Shown: positions 20,953 through 61,100 of the stretch, piece after piece
How the letters are laid out: every line of letters begins with the position of its first letter
How positions within the stretch are numbered: position 1 is the first letter of the stretch
Notes under the pieces: model-generated
Told to the model about the DNA's origin: nothing
The model's database searches: none
What the model saw: the letters and a program-made list of their open reading frames with translations, nothing else
Translations under genes and position numbers: made by a program
Source: Daucus carota subsp. sativus
Taxonomy: Eukaryota; Streptophyta; Magnoliopsida; Apiales; Apiaceae
NCBI RefSeq assembly: GCF_001625215.2
Contig: NC_030388.2
Span: forward strand, 25,532,558 to 25,596,557
Reading direction: 5' to 3'
Length of the DNA: 64,000 bases

Positions 20953-23091
20953 CTAAGCATCAGCCATGTCCATGATCTTAGCAAGAACGATCCTTGATTC
21001 CTTGAGTAAGCTAATACTCTTGTTCAACCTTTCCCTCTTCCCAGCAACCGAAGGCATTTCAATGAGCACGCGTTCAATGCCACCCTCTTTCGTATCCATG
21101 ACTTCATTAACGACTTCTGATTCCATTTTACCGTTTGCAAACCTCTGTATAGACAACATCAACTGAAGAGCAATGCAATCGACCATCCGTTTCAGAACAA
21201 TCTTCCAGTAAGCAGTCATTCTGCACTTCAGGTCAAATGCATCGTGTCTTATACCAGCAGGATAACTCCACAAATGAGTAACATCAATGCTCCCAAAATG
21301 TCCAAGATTAATCACTGTGTAATTCTGATTAAAATTACCACTGCAACTCATAAGATTCTTCCACTCTGTCAGATACTGAGGATCACTCGTATAGCCTCCC
21401 ATCTTCTCCATTTCCACGACCTCTAAAACTCGTTCAGTGGACTTCTCTTTGACACTAGAAATCAAATTGTGCGCTGCTCTTGTCATATGAGACTGAAACT
21501 GTGGATATTTCTCACAATGCTGCTCAACGACACCAATCACCACAGTTTCAACGTAGTCCCATACTTCTGCAATAAAGTCTGCAGCCATTTCTGAAATTGC
21601 TTTTATCTTTAGCTGTAGCAGAGCATGAAAAGCTGAACGAGGAAGAAAATTAGGCAGCGCAATTGCTTTAGTCTCCTTTAGCACCTCAATTTCATCAATC
21701 AAGAACTTCTCTGAAGAGCCATTATCAGAACTGCTTTTAATTTCTTCTGAGAACTTGTCAAGCATTTCAGCTAAACGAGCAGTACAATGCATACTTTTAT
21801 CATCAGGGTATTCATCAAACTCACCCCTCACAAGAAGTTTTTTCAAAGACTCTCTGGAAAAGCCCACAATCCTCATGAAAATAGCTATTGCCTCTGCAAT
21901 AGTAGACAGTTTTCGAGGCAGATTATTGAGCTCAGAAACATTTGCATTCAGCTTTACATTGATTTTCTTCACAATATCCGGCAAACATTTAGAAATAATA
22001 TTAGCTTGAATTTCCACAAGTCTTTTTGCCAGAACAGGAACACTAACCATCGACTTGTCAATCTTTTTCAGGAGCGGATGAGCCTGAAAAAGTTTAGTTT
22101 CTTTCATCCTCGCTTCTTCATAAGACTCATCACCAATCCGATTCCTCACACATACATAGCCAAGGCCTATCTTCACATCATCTGCCATCACCTTCTCATG
22201 CAATCCATCAGGAGCCTTATCTGATTTCATAACAACTGCCAGAGTCCTCTCTCCTGTTTTGTCCACAAGCTGTGACATTCTGATAGACTCACAGGTGGGA
22301 AAGTCGACAGTTGCAGAAAGAACATTGAGAATTATACTCTCCTCAGGCTTTACAAATTCCATTATCATTTCAGAAATTTGCTCATAGATATCCTCAGGCT
22401 GCCCGTGAACCGGAACCCTGGTAATACCTGTTTAAAAGTTTTATATAATGTCAAAGTACCTGCTAATCGATTATATATCAATACTCTGTTACTTAATTAC
22501 AGCTAGAAACTAATACATGAAATGTCATTTCTAGCATTGTTCATTTTTGGTTCAACGATGTTTTAATAGTTCGCGAAACATATGATTAAGAGAACTAAAA
22601 GGAGTATTAAGCATACCAGGCAAATCAATCATAGTGAGATCAGGGACACCATTTTTCTTCACCACAAGTGTCAAAGGAGTATGAGAAATCCCTTTTCCAT
22701 TGCCAGCAATCTCATCGGTGGCCATGTTAATCGCTTTCGCTACACTTAACTCATCTGTAGGAACTACTTTTGTAAGATACTCCAACTGAAGACTTGAGTC
22801 AGATTGTGCATGATTCTGCAGCCTGATGACAAGGGGGACCCTGGTACAAATTCCATCGCCGCGAGGCAAGCTGATACCAGCAACAGCAAGAGATTCCAGG
22901 ACACTGGACTTGCCAGAAGACTGGTCACCAACAACAACAATAGTAGGGAGCTGAATCCCTTCTTGCATAACATTAAGATCTCGAAGCTTGTCGATGGCAT
23001 CCAAGAGCGGTCGAATCCTATCATTGTAAGATGAGAGAAGGGATGCATCAACTCCAGGTACCTGGTCAACAGAATTTTCTTGAACTATCAT
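20953..23091 (-). CDS. DRP4-type dynamin-related GTPase (Mx-like), copy 1
   Basis: Two exons, 22617-23091 and 20953-22427, split within the DLPG motif; 649 residues. GTPase domain about 25-310: G1 GDQSSGKS (55-62), G2 Thr in GICTRVP (T83), G3 DLPG (156-159), G4 read as MKSD (225-228). A stalk follows, and a GTPase effector region lies at the C-terminus (IALQLMLSI onward). There is no PH or proline-rich domain, as in plant DRP4 and animal Mx proteins. It is the downstream member of a tandem pair with the gene at 24258-26366. Two differences from its paralogue fall in the GTPase core: Thr to Met in the G4 motif (codon 22228-22230), and a two-residue Val-Ala insertion just after the P-loop helix (about 22881-22889). 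Full length and uninterrupted, so probably expressed, but its nucleotide binding may be altered. Confidence 0.93.
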
Positions 23092-23140
23092 CTCTCTAAG
23101 TTTGAAATGTAGGATGTTTACAGAATGTTACTGAACAGTC

Positions 23141-23150
23141 CTTTATATAG
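23141..23150 (-). promoter_or_regulatory. probable TATA box of DRP4 copy 1
   Basis: CTATATAAAG on the minus strand, about 50 bases upstream of the start codon. It follows AATCCA, a context shared with the second DRP4 gene. Confidence 0.6.
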
Positions 23151-23505
23151 TGGATTCACAGGCTTGCATTCTATGCTACTTACTAGGACTACTAGTCAGA
23201 AACTGTTCAAATTCTTTTTCTTTTCCAGAGTTTTTACCTCTTGGAAAAGAATTAAGCTCATTAACAAGCAGACTTAGAAATACGTAGCATCATTACAGTT
23301 TACTTGTGTGGTGGTGGAGTCCCAAAGTAGTGCTTTGTGCAACACCTAATCACTCTTGGACTCTCCAGGAACAGTAAATGCAGGAAATTAATTTCTACTA
23401 GTGACCATTTTGTTGAGAATAAGTGTACTTGGCACTTGGGAAAGGAAAGGACCTAAAGGTCCATGAACACAACAACTTAATAATCTCTATGTTTTAATTT
23501 TTTTA

Positions 23506-23640
23506 CTCCCTCCATCCCAAATTAGATGTCCTTTTTGGGAAAAAAATTTATCCCAAAATAGTTGAGCCTCTCTCTTTTTAATGCACATTTATCAACAATC
23601 TTCCATTGTTACCCTTGCTTCCCAATGTACATATAAGCTG
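23506..23640. mobile_element. truncated Stowaway-like MITE
   Basis: It begins CTCCCTCCATCCC after TA. The expected inverted right end is missing, so the right boundary is approximate. Confidence 0.5.
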
Positions 23641-24257
23641 TTAAAATGTAATTGGCCAAAGAGAAAAGGAATTGGTTGATAAATGCTTTTGCCTTCACCT
23701 CATGTTCAGATCTAGGAACCGGAATCTAACCAGAATAAAGGTGAATATTTACTTGGCTGGAAATAGAGAATTTTAAATGTTTGTTCTCCTGAATGCAAAG
23801 AAATTTGTACAGAGTCGGTTGTTACTGTCTTTTCAACTTTAAGCAGTGTATCAAAAGTCTTATTTCCATATTTTCCATTAGACTATAATCACAAATTAGA
23901 AACTTGTTACTATGATCAATCTATGAACAAATTTATATTAGTAGACAGTTAAGTCTCACTGCACCTTCCTATGGACCATGTCTGCAATACAAATATCAGA
24001 AGTCTGCTTTATCAGATGTTTAAATTTTCGTAGCCTTCTATAAAACATTTCGAGTCATATTTTTCCTTAATTAAATAAAACTATAAGCGGGCAAAACTTT
24101 GTATAATCATCCAAAACTTAGTAGCAGTTTGAAAATGACAAATTGGAAGTTCATAGCACAACATCAGAGCACATCTTAATAATATAATAGCATATCATTA
24201 CCAAACCATAGTTATAAAGAGCTTACAAACTTGCAATTAGAAACTTGATTGCTTGAA

Positions 24258-26366
24258 CTAATCATCAGCCAGAGCAATATTATCAATGATCTTAGCGAGA
24301 ACCACCCTTGATTCCTTGAGTACACTAATACTTCTGTTCAACCTTTCCCTCTTCATAGCAATAGACGGCACTTCAATCAGCATACGCTCAATGCCACCCT
24401 CTTTTGTCTGCATAAACTCATTCACGATTTCCATTTCCAAGTCACAATTCACAAATCTCCGTATAGCCAGCATCAGTTGAAGAGCAATGCAATCAACCAT
24501 CCTTTTGAGAACAATATTCCAGTAAGCAGTCATTCTACACTTCAGGTCAAAAGCATCATTTCTTATACCATTAGGATAACTCCTCAGATGACTAACATCA
24601 ATGTTCCCAAAATATCCAAGATTAATCACCGCAGAAGTCTGATTAAAATTAATACTACTAGCGAGAAGCTTTTTCCACTCCACCAGATACTCAGGGTCAC
24701 ATGTATACTCAACAGTCTTCTCCATTTCCACAATCCCTGAAACTCGTTCAGTCGACTTCTCTTTGACACTTGATATCAAATTGTGGGCTGCTCTGGTCAT
24801 ACGAGACTGAAATTGTGGATATTTCTCACAATGACGCGCCAGGATCGCAATTACCACAGTTTCAACATAGTCCCATACTTTAGCAATAAAGTTGGAAGGC
24901 ATTTCTGAAATTGCTTTAATCTTGAGCTGTACCAAAGCATGAAACGATGAACGAGGAAGGAAATTAGGCAGGGCAATCGCTTTAGCCTCCTGTAGCTCCT
25001 TAATTTCATCAATGAGAAACTTCTCTGAAGAGTTATTGACAGAACTAACTTTTATTTCTTCCAAGAACTTGTCAAGAAATTCAGCTAAACGAGCAGAACA
25101 ATGCATATTCTTATCATCAGGGTATTCACCAAACTCACCTCTCACAAAAAGGTCTTTCAAGGACTCTCTAGACAATCCCACAATCCTCATGAAAGTAGCT
25201 ATTGCTTCTGGAACAGTAGACACTTTTTGCGGAAGACTGTTGAGCTCAGAAACATTTGCATTCAGCTTCATGTTGATTTTCTTTACAATATCAGGCAAGC
25301 ATTTAGATATGATATTAGCTTGAATCTGGACAAGCTTTTTCGCCAAAACAGGAACACCAACCATTGACTTGTCAATTTTTTTGAGTAGTGGATGAGCTTT
25401 AAAAAGCTTAGTTTCTTTCATTCTTGCTTCTTCATAAGACTCGTCACCAATTCGATTCCTCACACATACATAGCCCAGACCTATCTTAACATCATCCTCC
25501 ATCACCTTGGCATGCAATCCATCAGGAGCTTTGTCTGATTTGGTAACAACTGCCAAGGTTCTTTCTCCTGTTTTGTCCACAAGTTGAGACATTCGGATAG
25601 ATTCACACGTAGGGAAATCTACAGTTGCAGAAAGAACATTAAGTATTATACTTTCTTGTGGCTTAATAAACTCCATTATGATGCCTGAAATTTGCTCATA
25701 GATATCCTCAGGCTGCCCATGCACTGGAACTCTAGTAATCCCTGTTGAAAATTTTATTTTATGTTAACATAAATAAAAGCTAATAAGCAGAAAATAATAG
25801 CCATCAAATAGACTAATTGTTTAACAATCCTTTAATATTTTATGGTGTACATAACAATGATCAAAAGAACTAAATATAAAAAAGAGCATACCAGGCAAAT
25901 CGATCATAGTAAGGTCAGGGACACCATTTTTCTTTACCACAAGTGTCAAAGGGGTATGCGATATCCCTTTTCCACTACCCGCAATCTCATCAGTGGCTGA
26001 GCTAATCTCTTTCGCTACATTTGATTCATCTGTAGGAACTACTTTTGTGAGATACTCCAACTGAAGCTGTGTTTCAGATAGTGCATAATTCTGCAGCCTG
26101 ATAACAAGAGGGACCCTTGTACAAATGCCATCGCCTCGAGGCAAGCTGATACCAGCAAGAGATTCCAGGACACTGGACTTGCCAGAAGACTGGTCACCAA
26201 CAACAACAATAGTAGGGAGCTGAATCCCTTCTTGCATAACATTAAGATCTCGAAGCTTATCAATGGCATCTAAGAGCGGTCGAATCCTATCATTATACGA
26301 TGACACAAGAGATGCACCAACCCCAGATACCTCACTAGAATTTTCTTGATTTATGTAATTACCCAT
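24258..26366 (-). CDS. DRP4-type dynamin-related GTPase (Mx-like), copy 2
   Basis: Two exons, 25892-26366 and 24258-25741, with the intron at the same place as in copy 1 (inside the DLPG codons); 652 residues. The GTPase motifs are canonical: GDQSSGKSS, GICTRVP, DLPG and TKSD. A stalk and a C-terminal effector region follow; there is no PH or proline-rich domain. It is highly similar to the neighbouring gene along its whole length, so the two arose by tandem duplication. In the family, these large GTPases assemble on membranes; the physiological role of plant DRP4 is not well defined. Because its motifs are intact, this copy is the likelier to keep the ancestral activity. The N-terminus (MGNYINQENSS) differs from that of copy 1. 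Confidence 0.95.
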
Positions 26367-28583: not shown

Positions 28584-29785
28584 TCAATTATCTGCACAAA
28601 ATTTTAAAAAAAACCCCGCAAAAAATGAATTAAACACACACACAAACACATAATTTTGAAGTCAATGTAAAATGTGCTATTGACTTACCATCATTTTTCT
28701 TCAATAAACTCCTAGCAAAAAGCATACATATAACTAGAAATCCCACTCCAGCTGCCCCTCCTAATATAATTGCTACTGTCTTCCCTGTATTCTGCTGTGT
28801 ATCTACATTAATCAAAAGCCAAATTCCATTCAACTTTAGCTACTTTAAGACCCTCAATTAAGTCAATATTCATACATATGAAAAGAAGAATAACATAAAG
28901 AAAAAGCAAAAGAAAAGATAACAAAAGGGTTGCTTCATTAGCACAAGTTAATGGCAATTTTGTAATTATTTAATATAATAATGAAATTTTACCTGGTGAA
29001 GAAGAGGAAGTAGGAGTATATGGAGATGAAGATGAGGTTGGTGATGATCTCTTGGGAATCCCATTGGGATAATAACTATAACTAATAAAACACTTGTGAA
29101 GATAAATTTGACCAGAAATAGAGCTGCCACACTCAACTTGAGCTCTTTGAACTGCAGTTTTAACACAACTTCCACAATCTGAAGTCCCTAGATCACCTTG
29201 ACATTGTCCTAAAACAAACATGGACTCATAGCTAGTTGTATAGAAGCCATTCCCACTAGTGACTCCACTTTCGAGTGTCGAAAAGGCTGTGTCTCTCCTC
29301 TCTTGAAAGCCAGTCCCTCCTGCACTTGAACCTCCACAGGTCTTGTACAAAAGCTCAAGGCCTGAGATTTGAGCAAACCCAGCAACTTCATAGAGCATGT
29401 AGCAGCCCAGGAGCTGGATTCTTGCTGCCACAGGCTTGCCACAGAGCTTGTCAGTGAGGGTTGGGAGCCTGCTCACACAGTTGTAACAGTCCACATTTGA
29501 TAAGTCTCCTCTGCATTGGAAAAGGCCAGTGATTGTTGTTTGAGAAGTCCCTGTTGTGGTTTTGAAGAACCTGGTTTTTGAAGATTGTTGAACCAGGGTG
29601 CCATAGAGTGTTGAAATGGCTTGGGAGTAAACCCCAGATGGATCTGAGAGGGATTGTTTGGCACAACCCTTGTAGACCAATGTGTTGTAGTCTGGTGCAG
29701 ATTTGGGGTGAGCTATGAGCTCAAGATTTGCAAAGATTGTCAAGAAAAGAGGGAGGATGCAAAAGGGTTTTCTTGGTAAGCTCAT
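28584..29785 (-). CDS. plasmodesmata-located protein (two DUF26/Gnk2 domains, one TM)
   Basis: Exons 28993-29785, 28689-28802 and a proposed 8-base coding exon 28584-28591 ending in KKNDDN; 304 residues. Signal peptide about 1-30 (hydrophobic CILPLFLTIFANLELIA). First DUF26 domain carries CRGDLSNVDCYNC and the second CQGDLGTSDCGSC, both C-X8-C-X2-C. A Ser/Pro/Thr-rich linker follows, then a transmembrane helix (VAIILGGAAGVGFLVICML) and a very short cytosolic tail, with no kinase domain. This architecture is that of PDLPs, which sit in the plasma membrane lining plasmodesmata and influence callose and cell-to-cell movement. The tiny last exon is inferred from a good acceptor (TTTTGTGCAG) and from correct phase. 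Another acceptor at about 28315 would give a longer, unconvincing tail. Confidence 0.88.
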
Positions 29786-49788: not shown

Positions 49789-51568
49789 GGCAATTGAGAA
49801 TAGGCAGCTAGGGTTTTAGTCGAGAGAGAAAGGGGGGGGAGAGTGTGCGCGAGAGAGAGGGGAGTGTTGAAGAATGGTAGTCGATTATTAGGGATGGCTA
49901 TTTTTACTGCCACCGAATCTGTATATTTCGGTTAAGTATTTAAATTAAATCCCAACTATATTCGGATGCTCTGAATTTTAGACATACGGATCCAAAAACC
50001 AAAGTATATATATTGAACTTTGATTCTTAATACGCGTGTTTATTCCAAAATAGACCTATAAATTGAGACAGAAGGAGTATCATTTATAATTAGTTAAAAA
50101 TAAAAATCAATATCAATAAAAAATATTTATTTAAAAAAGATACTTATAGACGGAAGATTAAAATATATATTATTTTTGCTACTCGTTTATAATATATAAA
50201 AAATAATGTAAATGCAAGAATATCGTTTGGTTCGTGGAGCGATATGAGGTTTAAATTAGGGGTGTAATCGACTTGAGACGAGTCGAACACCTCTAGGCTC
50301 CACTCGAACTCGATTAAAAAGTTCGGAATTCGAGCTCGAGCTCAATCGAGATTTTAATTTTAAACTCGAAGCTCAGCTCGTGAAAAGTTGACAGGGTCGA
50401 GTTCGGCTCAAAATCTCAAATGATTTCACCATATATTAAGAAAGACTCGAACATGATCGATTCGGCTCGAGTTTAATTCGATTAAATATACAAAAAGATG
50501 CAATAATTAAATATTATGTATAATAGTAAGGATATAATATAAAAATAATTATGATCATACAGGCTCGATTCGCGAGCCGAGCAATATGAATTTCGAAATC
50601 GGCTCGGTGAACTATTTGAATAGCTCGACTTTGAGTTCGGCTCGATTATTTTCGAGGCAAATTCGAATATTTTCTGAGCCGAGTTTGAGCAGCTCACGAA
50701 TTGTTTGGCTCATTTACACCCCTTGATGGAATCAAGAATCAGGTTATGGTGGTATGGGGTTCTGGTATCATTTCTGATATCACGTGTTGGTTGAGTGTTA
50801 AAATAAATCTATTTAATTTCAAATGTTATTATGTTAATAGATTAAATTAAATTCATTTCCATTCATTTAAGATCAGTATCTTTAACAAAAAGTATAAATA
50901 TATACTTGGTAACAAGTTTTTAAGGATAGTTTGGTTTTAGAATCTGAGATTGGAATTAGAAATCGTATCAGTGTGACATGGGATTGAGGTATCATTTCTG
51001 ATATCATGTGTTTGTTTGAATGATTAAATAGACATCATTGATGAAAAATATATTGAATAATCATTTTTATTTAAATTGAAATATTATTTTAACTAAATTC
51101 TTTTAATATATTCTTGAGTTGTTGGTTTGTTTTGTATAAAAAACATATATGCAATTGTATAAATATAGATGACATAAAGAAAAAAGTTTTGATTTCTCGT
51201 AGCTATGCTTGAAACCCACCTCTCTGCTTAGATATAAAAAACACACACCTTTTAAATTTGAAGTATGAATTTCAAAATAATTTTTTCGTAACCAAACATT
51301 AGATATGGATTTAAAATGAATCAAACTCGTACTCGAAGAATTTGAACCAAATAAAACTTAAACAATTTTAAAAAGTACAAAAATTATACATAGAGTGAAA
51401 GTCCGTCAACTTGTCTGGACTCTGAAGATGGACTGACCCAATAAACAAAACCCTCTGCACCCGAAACTATAAGCCCAAATCTGAAATCATAAACTGAAAC
51501 CCTAAATTACACCTTCATATAAATATACACACATCTTACTAAGAACCCTAGTCTCATCAGCCACCACA
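49789..51568. other. intergenic region between divergent PRP19 and RPL23 genes
   Basis: Contains the promoters of PRP19 (-) and RPL23 (+). A hAT-like TIR element lies at about 50256-50725. AGGGTTT-type motifs near 49810 and ACCCTA near 51545 are common in promoters of translation-related plant genes. No other gene seen. Confidence 0.55.
50256..50725. mobile_element. hAT-like MITE, target duplication not found
   Basis: Left end TAGGGGTGTAATCGA; the right end on the other strand is AAGGGGTGTAAATGAGCC. The interior is full of GAGCTCGAG/CTCGA motifs in both orientations. The ends resemble the other TAGGGGTG elements here, but no 8-bp flanking repeat is visible, so one border may be eroded. Confidence 0.7.
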
Positions 51569-53364
<1,796 letters not shown>

Positions 53365-54088
53365 AGTGCTTGTTTTTCTATATAAATCTGTTATAGACAG
53401 TTTTGATAGGTGAATCAGTTGTTTTGCTCTTAAAAAATATTGGCCTGAATTGTCATGGTTGTGTTCATGTTCATTGCTAAATTAAGACTTTTGCAAGTTA
53501 TGGGTTTAAAATTTCAGAAGTTTCCGAAGCTGTGGGCTATATATGCTGATGTACTGTGCTTTTCTTATCACTTGGTTTTATATATATGTTGATATGCTTT
53601 CAGGCTTGGTCACTAGAATAATGTTAATGAGTCCGGTTAACAGGAACCCATCGATTAGTGTTATTAGTGGTTGGACTAGGAAATTTTGGAAATTTTTTGT
53701 ATGGAATGAGAATCTTATTTCAATTTATTACGAAGTTCTGAAATAAATAATACTTCCTCCGTCCCCCTAGGTAGTTTACTTTAGGGGACGAGAGTTTGGC
53801 ATGCATTCTAATGCTCTTTGAAAAATATAGTTTTGTAACTTACTCTATTATTTAATCTTTTTTCTTTTGAATAAAAATTTGATGTTTGAACTTTTACACA
53901 CAAAGATAAAATAACAAAAATAAGTTACGAAACTATGTTTTAAAAGAGTTTTATAATGTGTGTCGAACAGTGAAGTTAAAAGAGCTTTAAAATGCATGTC
54001 GAACAGAAAACGAGAGGGACGGAACTTTTAGGTTATGTAAGGGCAGCGCCTTTGGCTAGCATTTGCCATCAGTGTCATCCATCTTTTT
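53365..54088. other. spacer between convergent RPL23 and caleosin genes
   Basis: 3' flanks of both genes plus a degenerate Stowaway-like element at 53753-54024. No gene seen. Confidence 0.6.
53753..54024. mobile_element. degenerate Stowaway-like MITE
   Basis: Left end CTTCCTCCGTCCCCC after TA, weak inverted right end GAGGGACGGAAC. Ends have mutated; right border approximate. Confidence 0.55.
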
Positions 54089-55456
54089 CTAAATTCCTGT
54101 TCGGTAATTCTGGGCTAGTTTTTCAAATAAGCTCCCATCAAACAATCCCCTCATAAAATCCTTGGACACAAAACCATCCTCATCTTTTGCGATAATATAG
54201 AATAGTGTCCAACTACCCTTAGATTGAAGCCTGCAATCAGCATAAATATTAGTATCAACTGTGACCAGCTTTATTAAAACAGACTAGAGGCATGTTCGAA
54301 CCAGCCAACAATATCATGAGCAACTCGGTTTCCCTCGGTCATGTTCCACAGCTCTTTATATGTCATCTTCTCAGGATCCTTCTTCGCGTATCTGCTAAAC
54401 ATGTTCTCAAAGTTTACGGGCATGAACCTGCAAATATGCACACACTGAAATGGAAGTAAAGAGTACTGTGTTTCTGTTTCTGTGCGTCTCTCAAGGGTAC
54501 TAAAAGAGGTTCCAATTTAACAAAACTCATCTCATTTGTATCCATCGAATAGAGTATATCATTACCTTACCTTATGATTTCTATTCGTGATATGTTAAAG
54601 AGTCTTAACAGTATTGTTTACTATTATCACATTAAATCACGTTAAGTCATAAGTCGTAATTTTAAGCTCAGCCAAACAATCCAAACTATCTAATCTCTAG
54701 TTGTAATACCTCCCTTGGGCATCGTAGACTCCAGTATCACTTCCATGCTTGTCTTTATGAATGTTATCTATATATACAGGTAAAAGAAGAGAAGGGAACC
54801 ACCCCTGCAAAAGTATATAAACAATCGAGTAAAATGACAAGGCCTTAACATCTTACTGCAACATATAAAGTACAGCAATGTTTATGCAGAAGGACATGCA
54901 CTTACAGGGAGAGTTGGGTAGCTGTTGATTAGATTGAAACCAAATGCCAAAATGACGGAAAGAATCAAATTAAAACCAATCGCTTTAAATCCTGATTACA
55001 GAATAAAATTTACATTGTTTAGTAAGCAATCCTCATATTTACCACAAAAAGAGTATGATTTAAGACGCGGGGTTAATGAATTGGATGATAATCACCAGCA
55101 TAAGTCTCCCACGGATAAACTATGCCATCGTTGTTCTGATCAAAGAAAGCAACATGCTGTTGAAGAACACTCATTCCGCGATTCTTGGGGCCTTCTGTTC
55201 CAATAGGATGATCCGTGTCTGATGCAGTCAGTGCCCTTGCCTGATCTTTTCACATTTTTCATGATTTTTCAATAATTTTTAAGTGTTTGGATTCAAATTT
55301 CAAACTTTATATCAAATCAAAGTATGTTTTGTTAAAATTGTAGAAGAACAACTTACAAGGCTCTGAAAGCGAGTCCTCTAGATTACTTCCTATCCTTCTT
55401 CGAGTAGTCACTGGAGCCAAATGTGCCTCTGTTGCCATTGAATCATCCTTACTCAT
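54089..55456 (-). CDS. caleosin (peroxygenase-type oil-body/membrane protein)
   Basis: Six exons: 55357-55456, 55096-55245, 54906-54991, 54710-54804, 54302-54427, 54089-54230; 232 residues. Residues 58-80 carry [20 protein letters not shown], with one EF-hand loop (69-80) and a His (64) of the kind that binds haem. The hydrophobic stretch 85-107 is followed by the caleosin proline knot P-X3-P-S-X3-P (112-121). Then come [11 protein letters not shown] with a second conserved His, [14 protein letters not shown], and a C-terminal [10 protein letters not shown]. Caleosins sit on lipid droplets or the ER, bind calcium and act as peroxygenases in oxylipin metabolism. All conserved motifs are present. 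The start at 55456 (MSKDD) is chosen; MATEA at 55438 is also possible. Confidence 0.93.
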
Positions 55457-56379
55457 CTTTCTCGCCTTCTCTCTTCGTTTCTTTAGTGTTGATATCTCTT
55501 GTGGTCTGTTAACACTAAAATGGAAAAATGTAGTATTGATGCAATTTAACGCAGAGAAGACGTTAACTTGGACCCAAACCAGACACATAACTCACATTAG
55601 CTTGGTAACTAACCAGGCACATAACTCTGAACCTCTGTTGAGACTAATTTACGCCAACCATTTCGTGTTTAAAATTACTTTCTTGCCTGGTGCTCTGCAG
55701 AACTTGTGAAAGCATCAATTTCAGTAATTTACTCTGTTGCAGGAATTTGATTGGAAGCTGCAGTTTGATTACTTCTTCTAATCTTTGTTAGTTTGATACT
55801 AAATCCTTACGTGCTAAAATCATCATCGTCTTCCTTCTCTGTTAATGCATGATGCCGTAAAAATGCATCAAAACATGAGTTTATTAAGGTATGAATTTTG
55901 TAACAAACTTTTTATCATGCAGGTTTAATCACTTGGTCAACTAACTACTACCTGCTTAGTTGGAGTTGGTTTGTATTCTTGTCTGAAGCAATTTCAATTT
56001 TTATACCAGCAACTTTTGTGTTTGTTGTTCAGTTGGTGAAGTTCACCTGCAGTTGTTCAAAAATTGTGGCCTGTGGGAACCTGGATTTCATTTGAAATTC
56101 TAGATTTGATCAAATAACTTGTTTGGGAATTTGGATTTCATCTGAAATCCAGTCATTCAAATATTAGTATAAATCTGAGAATTTGAAATGACAACTCAAA
56201 TCCTGTCATTTGAAAGCAATCATTTGAAATGAAATGCATGTTTCCAAACGGCCTCTTATATTACTCAAAGAAACACAAGGGATGTCCAGAAATCCCCATT
56301 GACTGAGAAGACAATAATACTAAAAGCAGATAACAAAGGTAACAAATGAGATTCATACAAATTTCATCCAAAAAAAAAA
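55457..56379. other. spacer between gag-DC1 ORF and caleosin gene
   Basis: Upstream region of the caleosin gene and 3' flank of the gag-DC1 ORF. Repeated short TTTGAAAT/ATTTCA motifs at 56085-56250 suggest a small AT-rich element. I looked here for an LTR or polypurine tract belonging to the gag-DC1 ORF and saw none. Confidence 0.5.
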
Positions 56380-58137
56380 TCACTTTTGGGGACACCATTG
56401 ACCACATTCTTCGATCCTACCAGCCAATATGTTTTGCTTCATCAGCTCGACGCGGTTGAGAATCTGCTTCCTTACCATTCCATTCTTGGTACCATACAGA
56501 ACCTTAGAGGCTGCACATTTAGTATGAGCAACGACTTCGTAGCAAACATTACAACCATAATACCATAACTTTTGGTTAATGTTTTTCATGCATATTGCAC
56601 ATGAAAGACTTTTCCCCTCCTCAATTGGCTCACAAGAAGTGCGTAAACTGAGTGTGTGATCATGGCCTATATGTTGGATGCTGATAGGCAAAGTCACACA
56701 GTAGACATGGAGCTCATAATTGTGCTTCTTTTTGCTATCCAAACAACCAAACGAGACCCGTTCGTTTGGCTCACCACAGGCTGCACAATGGCTAGATGAT
56801 GTCGAAGCTTTGAGGCTGAGAGGGTGTGAGTGAGACTGGTGCTTGAGAGACTCTGGTATCAAAGCACAATGCACATCAAGAGAAAACTGGCAAGTAGCAC
56901 AATTATAATGAAATCCCTTACCAGAAGCACCACAAGCACAACAAAGAAACCTGCCACTGTGATTAGGGGTGTCAAGTAGGAGTGTTAAGGGGTGTTTCCT
57001 ATGGGCTACATCATGCATTTTGCGAGGCACTTTTGCACATAAGTAATGAAGGATATAATTGCATTCGACACAGCTATATGTTGGACCTCCAGACAATGCT
57101 AATCTGCAGCCAGAACAAAAAAGTTCTTCGTTGCTCGTTTTAGAGAAGGTCAAGGGATGCTCATGACTTATATGTTGAAGCTCCATTGCTCTCTTATTAG
57201 GTGTAAACAGGTCCTTCAAGGACTGAGGATATCCGTGCAGTCTGTAACATTTGTCGATGGTGTGACTATTTAATTTGCAATAACCACAGTGGAGGTGAAG
57301 GTCAGACTTATCAGGTGATATAAGGTTATGAGCTGACAAATAACTTTGGGAGTTCTTGATCAATGAAGAATAACTGTTTCTATGTTCAGATGCAATAGAC
57401 AGAACAGAAAGGCCTCTTTGGCTTTCTTCCTTCAAAACAAGAATATAAGCATCATCAGCCGATGGAAGAGGTTCCATAGAAAGTATATTTCTCCTTAATT
57501 TATCATAAGTCTCATTTAGACCAACAAGAAACTGCATCAAATTTTGTACGCGGAAATAATTTTCAGTGGATTCACAGCTACAAGAAGAGAAAAAGAGATA
57601 TAGGCTTGAATAATACCATATATCCTTCAACTTCTCATAATAAACTGTGACAGTATCATTGCCTTGCTTAAGACCTGCAAGGGCCTTCTGCAGGTTGAAT
57701 ATTCTCAGCCCTTCATCAGGCGAAAAACGATACAAAAGATCTTTCCATAGCTCAGCAGAGGAATTAGCATTAACATTCCTAAGAACAAAATCTTCATGAA
57801 GTGAATTAACTAACCATGACAAGACCATCTGATCTGCTCGACTCCAGGATGAAAACGCGACAGGATCATCCTCTGCACTAGGCTGCTTGATGGTTCCATC
57901 TATAAATCCCACCTTGTTTTTCACAGCAAGTGCCATCATCATTGCATCACTCCACTCCTTGTAGTTGTCACCAGTGAGTTGTGTGGACACAACAAGACTG
58001 TTCAGACTATCAGAAGGGTTTATGTAAAAAGGATCATATATGGAGCACTCAATATCAGTAGCAGAAGATAAAGATTGATGAGATGATAAAACTATACTTT
58101 TGCTATTAGCCATTGAATTGTGATGAAAATGATGCAA
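56380..58137 (-). CDS. Copia-type gag fused to four DC1 zinc-binding modules
   Basis: Single exon, 585 residues from 58137; a second Met at 58113 (MANSKS) is an equally likely start. Residues 35-310 are a Copia retrotransposon gag: the DPFYINPSDS entry, LTGDNYKEWSDAMMMAL, KNKVGFIDGTI, WSRADQMVLSWLVNSL, and a CCHC knuckle C284-X2-C-X4-H-X4-C297 followed by YRLHGYP. In place of protease, integrase and reverse transcriptase, residues 318-585 carry four DC1 (divergent C1) modules with repeated H..HPL, CX2C and C..C..C motifs. DC1 modules are zinc-binding and common in plant proteins of largely unknown role. Met318 (57186) opens a sequence, MELQHISHEHPL, like the start of an ordinary DC1 protein. 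No stop or frameshift in 585 codons, and no LTR seen nearby. Function unknown; nucleic-acid or capsid-like assembly through gag is only a guess. Confidence 0.9.
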   Translation of the reverse strand: MHHFHHNSMANSKSIVLSSHQSLSSATDIECSIYDPFYINPSDSLNSLVVSTQLTGDNYKEWSDAMMMALAVKNKVGFIDGTIKQPSAEDDPVAFSSWSRADQMVLSWLVNSLHEDFVLRNVNANSSAELWKDLLYRFSPDEGLRIFNLQKALAGLKQGNDTVTVYYEKLKDIWYYSSLYLFFSSCSCESTENYFRVQNLMQFLVGLNETYDKLRRNILSMEPLPSADDAYILVLKEESQRGLSVLSIASEHRNSYSSLIKNSQSYLSAHNLISPDKSDLHLHCGYCKLNSHTIDKCYRLHGYPQSLKDLFTPNKRAMELQHISHEHPLTFSKTSNEELFCSGCRLALSGGPTYSCVECNYILHYLCAKVPRKMHDVAHRKHPLTLLLDTPNHSGRFLCCACGASGKGFHYNCATCQFSLDVHCALIPESLKHQSHSHPLSLKASTSSSHCAACGEPNERVSFGCLDSKKKHNYELHVYCVTLPISIQHIGHDHTLSLRTSCEPIEEGKSLSCAICMKNINQKLWYYGCNVCYEVVAHTKCAASKVLYGTKNGMVRKQILNRVELMKQNILAGRIEECGQWCPQK

Positions 58138-58190
58138 GACTCAATTTTTCTAGTGTTGTACTAGCTCACAGAGTTGGTACCAGCAGAATA

Positions 58191-58197
58191 ATTTATA
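58191..58197 (-). promoter_or_regulatory. possible TATA box of gag-DC1 gene
   Basis: TATAAAT on the minus strand, 54 bases upstream of the first Met and 78 from the second. The spacing suits a short 5' leader. Confidence 0.45.
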
Positions 58198-61100
58198 GCA
58201 GAAAATGAGTTGTCCCACTCTCCAGTGTCTGGGGCCTGGAAGTACATCATTCAAGAAATATAAAAAGGTATTTTCATTGACATAATAAACGTTTAAGTTG
58301 GATTTTAGCATGTTGTAAAGGAATATCTCAATATTAATCATGATCTTGTGAAGTTAGCAGTATTACTCAAATGAATACGTATGAGTCACATGTTTTTTAA
58401 ATTAATACTACTATTAGATTAGTTGGAATGTGGCATACGAGGACTTGAACATGCACATCACTTGTTTCTACTTTCTATTAGCATCAAATCCCGCATTTTG
58501 GATTCGATTTTCGCTCACGGATAATCTGAATACTACTCGAAGTTTAAGTTTTAAAAAAAGAAGGAAGAAAGAAGAAAATTTGCACATGAGGCTGCAAATT
58601 ATAAAATGATTTGGTTTCGTGATTATACATTATTGTTTAGGTACATGCTGCCAGAGGATTATTAGTGTATATTAGGTGTGGATTACCTAACTTTAGACCT
58701 TGAATTTATATGTGACATTTCATATTTTTCTAAGAAAGTGTTTAATAAATTGAGATTATCTTTTTCCGGAAATGTTGGAGCACATGAGTTACAGGTTACA
58801 GAACTGTTCTTAATAATAAAGAAAGAGTGCGCTTCACATAAGTGTTCTTGAATTGACTTACTAGCTTAGCGGTCTGTTGTTGACTAGTAAATGCATGGAG
58901 GTCCCCCCGAAATCATTTCCCAGATGTTTAACAAAAAGTGGTTTACAATGATAATATTGGGGGTGTTTGGATCGAAGAAATCCGGGCTTTTTTTAAGGAG
59001 AAGCCCACTTCAGGAGCCCGAAGCCTGTTTGAACAAAAAAGTCAGAGCACTTTTTTTTTTTTTTTAATATTCTAAAACCGGAAGTTAGAAGCTCTGTTTC
59101 CTTACTTCTTCTATGTGCCTCTCTCTTTTTTTAACTTCTCTCATTAAAAACAAAACAACGTAACCCCTTTCCCAGCCTCACTCTGCATTTTGTTACCAAG
59201 TTTTATTTATTATCAATGATTTTTCTTTTTTTGTTTAAACATCAAGTTTAATTGTTTTGTATTTCAATTATTTTATGTTAAAGTTTAATTATTTTGTATC
59301 AAGTTTTATTACTCTTAAATATATTTAAATTATTTTGTATTTTAATTTGTTACCGATTTTTATCTATTATCAATGTAAAAACTTTTAAAAAATATTTTAT
59401 AATACCAAACATTGCATGAACTTATAAGTCAAAATATCCAAACACTACAAAAAACTTATAAGTTAAGGTTACCAAACATTTTAACAACTTAAAAGTTTTA
59501 CTTCTGCTTCTCACTTCTACTCCACTTCTTTAGTTTAAGCAAGAAGTTATTTCTTTTAAACTTGTCCAAACGACCCCATTGTCTTGAGATTAGTTAGCCG
59601 CGCTGAAAAACAGAAATACACTCTAGGCAACCCATGCTCGTTAATGCCCTGAATATCACGATGCGGAAAAATAGCCTCAAACACAATTTATTAATGCTGC
59701 ATTCTATAGCGTTTTGGATATTCATACAAAACTCTAGATAGTCTAACGTTGTGTTCTGGGTTAAAAGAATAGAACATTATGTTAGGGTTAAAAAGAACAT
59801 AACGCTAAATCATCAAGCATTTTGCTGGGTTAAAATAACAAAACGCTACACGATCTAGCGTCTTCTTTCCGGGCGTTAATAATTGGTATTTGGGGTCATT
59901 TTTTCTAAATCTGTTATTCTGGACATTATATCTCTATTTTGTGAGATATGTGGCCATTTTTCAATAATAGATATATTTAATAGTAAAATATATCTAAATT
60001 ATATTCTTTTTGGGTTAATACTAGTATGATTGTAGAAATTCACATCAATTTTCAAAGTATAAATTTACTCATGTACTTAAAGCTAGTAACTTGCACATTC
60101 ACTATTTTTTTGTACATTTTCTCTTCACTCCACTAACTTTTGTTGACTTTTTATGATAATAATTAAATACTTGTAAAAGTAGAAGATCAAATCAAATTGC
60201 CGTGCTCATCTGTATCTTACTGCAGCAAATTTTCTATCTCTATGAAGTTTTTCTTTCCACCGTTTGATCTTTAACTTCATATTTTCAAGACTGGATTAGC
60301 TTTGGATAACAAGTGATTGTAGCTGGAGCTAGAAGAAGACTCTTGCACGCATTGTTGATAAATCAAAAGAAGGATTCAGAAGAAGTACATCTTTATTGGA
60401 GTTTGACTTTCTATATTTGTCTTTATGTCTTTGCACTCTGGTTACTCAGTGAATTTCTATTTATGTAATTCACCGTTAAGCAAGTGGTCACTTGTAATGC
60501 TACGGGTGAAGTCCTCACAAGAATGTGTTCCACAAAGCTTTTATGTTGTCCATAACTGTTAAATTTCAAGCAATAAAATCCCATTAATATAACCATCAGT
60601 ATATGCATGTCATTTATATCAACCAAGAACATGTCACCTTATTTCAAATAATTGTAGATTCTAATTTCTAGATCAATAAAACTAAGCATCATTATATATA
60701 AGAGAACATTAAGGGAATTGATTAAGCACACAAGATACGAAAAATCAAAATCATGTCTAGCACAAATCTGGGTAAATATAAAACTAACAGTTATGAATTA
60801 CTGTAACAAATATAAAATTATTACCTGCAAATATATGATAATAGAGCACAATTTTTTTGGAGCAATTTCTTCATTGTTTACCTGAAATGGATATTTCATG
60901 AATTTATAAAGCATAACAAAAAAAATCATAGTGGAAAATTTTAAAGTAATAATTTAATATGGACGAAGTATAAGATTGTGTAAGTACATGATATCTGTAT
61001 GTAGAAACTCATATCAAATTATAATTTTTGTCATAAATGAAAGCTTTCAAGTACAATCTAGATCAGATTATAGGCAATTAAAATCTAATTATAAACTTGA

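Follow-up and report, generated by a model that had tools for sequence, protein, structure and literature searches.

Capsid genes of retroelements that hosts have retained are known mainly from animals, where Arc and PEG10 represent domesticated retroelement capsid genes, and the animal domesticated capsids stem from retroviruses or Ty3-type elements. Fv1 is likewise described as a host-kept gag, and Ty1 p22/p18, which includes the capsid C-terminal region of Gag (UBN2/Retrotran_gag_2), as disturbing particle assembly (PMC8458377). The roles of plant DC1 proteins are poorly known; a survey of tomato, where 15 of the 21 DC1 genes are intronless, connects them with responses to stress and light and with the gametophyte (PMC10707348). 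Gag (UBN2, UBN2_3) and C1_2 domains have each been found fused to NLR immune receptors (PMC4759884). Here we describe a carrot locus, in a window of 64,000 nucleotides (the whole stretch of DNA analysed; Daucus carota subsp. sativus, NC_030388.2, positions 25,532,558 to 25,596,557), where a Copia gag and a four-module DC1 protein share one reading frame, and which very probably represents a domesticated host gene.

The frame at 56380-58137 is open over 585 codons on the minus strand, and frame 1 of the plus strand in the same interval is full of stops. The initial annotation of this DNA had the open length right and left the strand unstated; its description of a Copia gag with a knuckle, followed by four DC1 modules and lacking pol, is borne out by Pfam and alignment. 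Retrotran_gag_3 is recognized at residues 41-87 (E 9.4e-18, 64.2 bits, cut-off 24.1), Retrotran_gag_2 at residues 66-241 (E 5.6e-7, 29.6 bits, cut-off 27), and C1_2/DC1 in four stretches (E 2.9e-31, 108 bits, cut-off 26), with the CCHC knuckle C284-x2-C-x4-H-x4-C297 located between the gag and DC1 parts. No pol domain is found among the five Pfam families listed up to E 1 in the window fusion protein. The listed start of the frame is a TTG, with the first ATG at residue 9 (58113), from which about 577 amino acids are encoded; as a second copy of the gene on contig C7 has a Met at the equivalent place, this ATG is likely the start codon. A PDB sequence search with a limit of E 1 returned three hits, all weak, the best being 1v5n (protein At1g60420; E 0.0092, residues 367-430), and the AlphaFold2 single-sequence model of the fusion protein reached a pLDDT of 33.9 and a pTM of 0.22, too low to inform on the fold.

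Table 1. Features of the fusion gene and of its ribosomal-protein neighbor in the window. Borders of the DC1 modules were placed by eye.
Feature	Position	Strand	Evidence
Gag-DC1 fusion CDS, first ATG to stop	56380..58113	-	Frame and alignment with C7 copy
Copia gag/capsid region, residues 35-283	57289..58035	-	Pfam Retrotran_gag_3, Retrotran_gag_2; NG86 omega 0.176
CCHC zinc knuckle, residues 284-297, Gly before His changed to Ser	57247..57288	-	Alignments
Linker, residues 298-317	57187..57246	-	Alignment with C7 copy
M318, fusion junction, aligned with start Met of unfused L052	57184..57186	-	DC1 alignment
DC1 module 1, residues 321-370	57028..57177	-	Pfam and alignment
DC1 module 2, residues 371-430	56848..57027	-	Pfam and alignment
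DC1 module 3, residues 431-485, S468 versus Cys in C7 copy	56683..56847	-	Pfam and alignment
DC1 module 4, residues 486-549	56491..56682	-	Pfam and alignment
C-terminal tail, residues 550-585, by eye like L052 tail	56383..56490	-	DC1 alignment
Ribosomal protein uL14 (L23) gene, extent of C7-matching stretches, not a gene model	51550..53414	+	C7 match, Pfam Ribosomal_L14

Elsewhere in the window, also on the minus strand, two similar dynamin-like genes lie in tandem at 20953-26366, each as two long frames by eye; Dynamin_M and GED were found in the one of these four frames on which Pfam was run. A further minus-strand frame at 28970-29785 contains two Stress-antifung stretches (Pfam), which we take to be of the DUF26 type.

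The genome searched comprises 441 Mb in 11 contigs, nine of them of 33-65 Mb, with the window on C8. A protein search identified one other full-length match in the same genome, the 78% identical copy on C7. Its frame of 584 amino acids is intact, ends at its own TAA two residues short of the end of the window protein, and matches the same gag and DC1 Pfam families (Retrotran_gag_2 at 42.3 bits, cut-off 27); no frame-breaking indels separate the two copies. The fusion is neither chance nor an assembly join, as the same join is present with an intact frame on a second chromosome, and the concern raised at the outset that it might be a single assembly join is thereby ruled out. Among the matches listed, none of the 73 other gag places adjoins one of the 150 listed DC1 places (by eye), in lists drawn from the 75 of 969 first-look candidates scored for gag and the 144 of 314 scored for DC1, so that decayed or distant copies could escape them. 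A search with the C1_2 family (150 of 806 candidates scored) recovers both fusion loci; it also scores in two of 14 control genomes, above the cut-off in one. A 565-amino-acid DC1 frame at C2:58.401 Mb shows DC1 modules and no gag in the 391 amino acids examined. Three Copia frames (C1:41.198, C5:24.408 and C1:21.120 Mb), read by eye for further host fusions, consist of gag followed by what are presumably pieces of pol. Relatives of the fusion were found neither in virus contigs nor in bacterial or archaeal genome contigs, a result with no bearing on other plants.

L052, a DC1 protein of four modules that is encoded on C4 without a gag, aligns with the DC1 half from end to end; its frame spans 288 amino acids from the aligned Met. 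The two have the opening MExxHxSH in common, their C-terminal tails are alike by eye, and M318 is identical in both fusion copies. Position 57186, given as the junction in the initial annotation, is indeed the first base of the M318 codon. Because the alignment with L052 runs Met-to-Met and along the whole length, gag appears to have been set in frame before a complete DC1 gene, at the old start codon. L052 lies with L035 in a small group of DC1 genes lacking gag (C4:24.72 Mb), and these are among the closest relatives of the fused half observed within the DC1 family.

Next, the surroundings of the two copies were compared. No LTR-sized direct repeats were found in 54000-60500, where the longest repeat family reported measures 44 bases, and none between the flanks of the window copy (flanks of 2.4-3.4 kb were compared at both copies). 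The same holds for LTRs at the second copy, envisaged when the frame was first described: the C7 flanks display no LTR-sized repeats, only matches of 26-36 bases. A uL14/L23 gene lies about 3 kb past the fusion stop in the window, tail-to-tail with it, and its duplicate on C7 is found at equal distance and in equal orientation beside the fusion copy there. Elsewhere the two segments have only short matches in common, repeat-like as far as examined; the synteny of the fusion copies rests on two genes, the fusion and uL14. The dS values of the pairs are nearly equal, 0.641 for the fusion (572 codons) and 0.680 for uL14 (97 codons). Given the same order and orientation and these near-equal values, the two genes would most simply have been duplicated together as a host segment, rather than by two insertions. 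As a separate observation, a repeat of about 220 bases at window positions 44594-44813 matches C7 at about 14352793-14353038 in both orientations, hence contains an inverted repeat, and has the look of a short mobile element.

The segment was most likely duplicated in a whole-genome duplication, which in carrot would be Dc-alpha. The Ks peaks reported for carrot are 0.551 +/- 0.06 for Dc-alpha, dated to 46-52 Mya, and 0.944 +/- 0.176 for Dc-beta (PMC6995200), and dS values of 0.64 and 0.68 are nearer to Dc-alpha, yet both somewhat above its peak. The fusion would accordingly be at least as old as the Dc-alpha duplication, about 46-52 Mya, and the suggestion that the open frame might be young is contradicted by a dS of 0.64. 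Near-identical copies of the uL14 exon number three among eight genome matches. The third, at C1:1.51 Mb, encodes nearly the same protein in the compared exon and has a dS of about 1.9 to the other two, and by this value it appears to mark an older segment. No trace of gag-DC1 was detected in the surrounding 20 kb, some 10 kb in each direction (L055/L056, C1:1502001-1522000; best tblastn E 2.6), and this segment sets no further limit on the age of the fusion.

We then estimated selection on the two halves separately, as had been proposed with the first description, in the single gene pair available from this one genome (window versus C7). By NG86, leaving aside the knuckle and linker as too short alone, omega is 0.176 for gag residues 35-283 (bootstrap 95% 0.12-0.25) and 0.148 for DC1 residues 321-549 (0.09-0.23). 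A pairwise maximum-likelihood (ML) codon model written for this analysis gave 0.144 for gag residues 35-310 and 0.178 for DC1 residues 318-585 and rejected omega = 1 for either half (p 2e-21 and 6e-18, respectively), and each of the four DC1 modules singly rejects it as well (ML, p 6e-4 to 1e-8). Strong purifying selection thus acts on the gag and DC1 halves alike, and the earlier suggestion that the frame is under selection stands. By eye in the alignment, residue 468 in module 3 (window 56734-56736), one of the usual Cys ligands and retained as Cys on C7, is replaced by Ser in the window copy. The difference may point to functional divergence between the copies, and with this zinc ligand lost the window copy could be relaxing.

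The gag half was compared, in a tree and an alignment, with 18 Copia gags, the first of the 73 other gag matches. The gags of the window and C7 fusions form their own clade on a long stem in this tree, which is midpoint-rooted only and carries a long-branch warning. Sixty gag columns are conserved across 90% or more of these 18 Copia rows; both fusion copies retain 41 of them (42 in the window, 44 on C7), and 19 are altered in one or both. The Gly preceding the knuckle His is present in all 18 Copia rows and is replaced by Ser in the window copy and Thr on C7. The net charge of the 64 residues around the knuckle is +4 in the window and +1 on C7, versus +5 to +10 in the Copia rows, one of which (L015) is interrupted by a stop there; the window value thus falls short of the Copia minimum by a single charge. 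We read this pattern as a capsid body largely kept and a nucleic-acid binding presumably somewhat weakened, and the idea that the kept gag serves as a nucleic-acid binder is itself somewhat weakened by the lost Gly and the lower charge.

Aggregated, the data favor the view that a host gene took over a gag, one of two options offered in the initial annotation: two intact copies reside in a duplicated segment, omega is 0.14-0.18 and LTR-sized repeats are lacking. Several marks of a domesticated gag are found here: an intact frame at a fixed position, kept in two syntenic copies that have diverged to dS 0.64; a gag that belongs to no element and is nonetheless under purifying selection (in the one pair); and neither LTRs nor pol. 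In terms of origin, a Copia gag consisting of capsid and knuckle would have been placed immediately before the start codon of a complete four-module DC1 gene and in the same frame, and the fused gene would then have been duplicated with its ribosomal-protein neighbor, purifying selection keeping both copies. As for function, we tentatively propose that the gag half has retained a capsid fold, through which it would bind to itself or to Copia Gag, that several DC1 zinc modules would thereby be gathered in one multivalent complex, that the DC1 half would act as the effector touching host partners, and that genome packaging would no longer be selected. A somewhat more speculative extension is a plant-encoded capsid, tens of millions of years old, forming shells or lattices of the Copia kind that bear DC1 zinc modules, which might either trap living Copia Gag or represent a multivalent host signaling scaffold.

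Whether the gene is directed at retrotransposons is a narrower question. As a Gag-type restriction factor, its gag half would co-assemble with living Copia Gag and poison or tag the particles, in the manner of Ty1 p22/p18 and Fv1, with DC1 as effector. A large part of the capsid core has been retained and the knuckle has been altered, and the Ty1 restriction factor sits in the UBN2/CA-CTD part of Gag (PMC8458377). The corresponding Retrotran_gag_2 (capsid C-terminal) domain, expected of such a factor, scores above the Pfam cut-off in both copies. Moreover, 31 of the 73 other listed gag places lie in open frames of at least 1,300 amino acids with no stop in the match (by eye), and hence possible restriction targets remain. 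However, gag is under purifying selection, its pairwise omega of 0.14 giving no hint of an arms race, and the fusion gag is only 31-40% identical to the 73 listed gag places, making co-assembly with present elements doubtful. We regard a restriction role as rather unlikely. A host scaffold role is as likely, because DC1 proteins are tied to stress, gametophyte and light responses.

The other option in the initial annotation, capture of a DC1 gene by a non-autonomous element of the Copia type that is mobilized in trans, is very improbable. The N-terminal gag is as in elements, with DC1 in the place of pol, but only two full-length copies were found among the matches listed, both beside the same ribosomal gene and about equally diverged, and LTR-sized repeats are missing; synteny and copy number thus contradict it. 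Of what defines a Copia element, the fusion has neither gag-pol nor LTRs nor dispersed copies. Just as improbable is that the DC1 half alone matters, with gag as an inert leader or DC1 translated from M318. This Met is indeed common to both copies and aligned with the old start codon, but gag has an omega as low as that of DC1, with neutrality firmly rejected, and is free of frameshifting indels; selection on both halves argues against an inert leader. An assembly join or decaying chimera, for which one might cite the zinc ligand lost from the window copy, can practically be dismissed in view of the same join and intact frame on another chromosome.

Retention of a Copia gag, fused to a complete plant zinc-module protein and preserved in two duplicated copies, would mean that plants, too, recruit capsids. 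The fusion provides a defined protein for asking whether DC1 proteins act clustered on a capsid-like scaffold, and also bears on whether plants hold Gag-based retrotransposon control. No report of a gag-DC1 fusion gene was found among the matches listed in the open-access literature, and the terms 'gag', 'UBN2' and 'retrotransposon' are absent from the main text of the DC1 surveys of tomato (PMC10707348) and Ipomoea (PMC13033517).

Compared with known systems, the fusion resembles plant DC1 (CHP/CHR) proteins in having its DC1 modules in a single open frame, with a start and tail as in L052, and differs from them by the gag added in front. NLRs with integrated gag or C1 domains provide a second parallel; as far as described in that source, they include no protein with gag and DC1 but without an NLR (PMC4759884). 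Ty1 p22/p18 likewise derives from a Ty1/Copia-type Gag, the UBN2/Retrotran_gag_2 region corresponding to the capsid C-terminal domain (PMC8458377). In contrast, p22 is a product of the element and consists of gag only, whereas the fusion is encoded by a host gene of its own and carries DC1 modules. With the animal domesticated capsid genes (Fv1, Arc and PEG10) the fusion shares a host-kept gag at a fixed place and under selection, but here a plant Copia gag is fused to a multi-module zinc protein. Domesticated gags are already known, while the gag-DC1 combination appears to be new and, if the capsid-protein reading is true, would to our knowledge be the first case in plants of a Copia gag that has long been retained in fusion with a zinc protein of the host.
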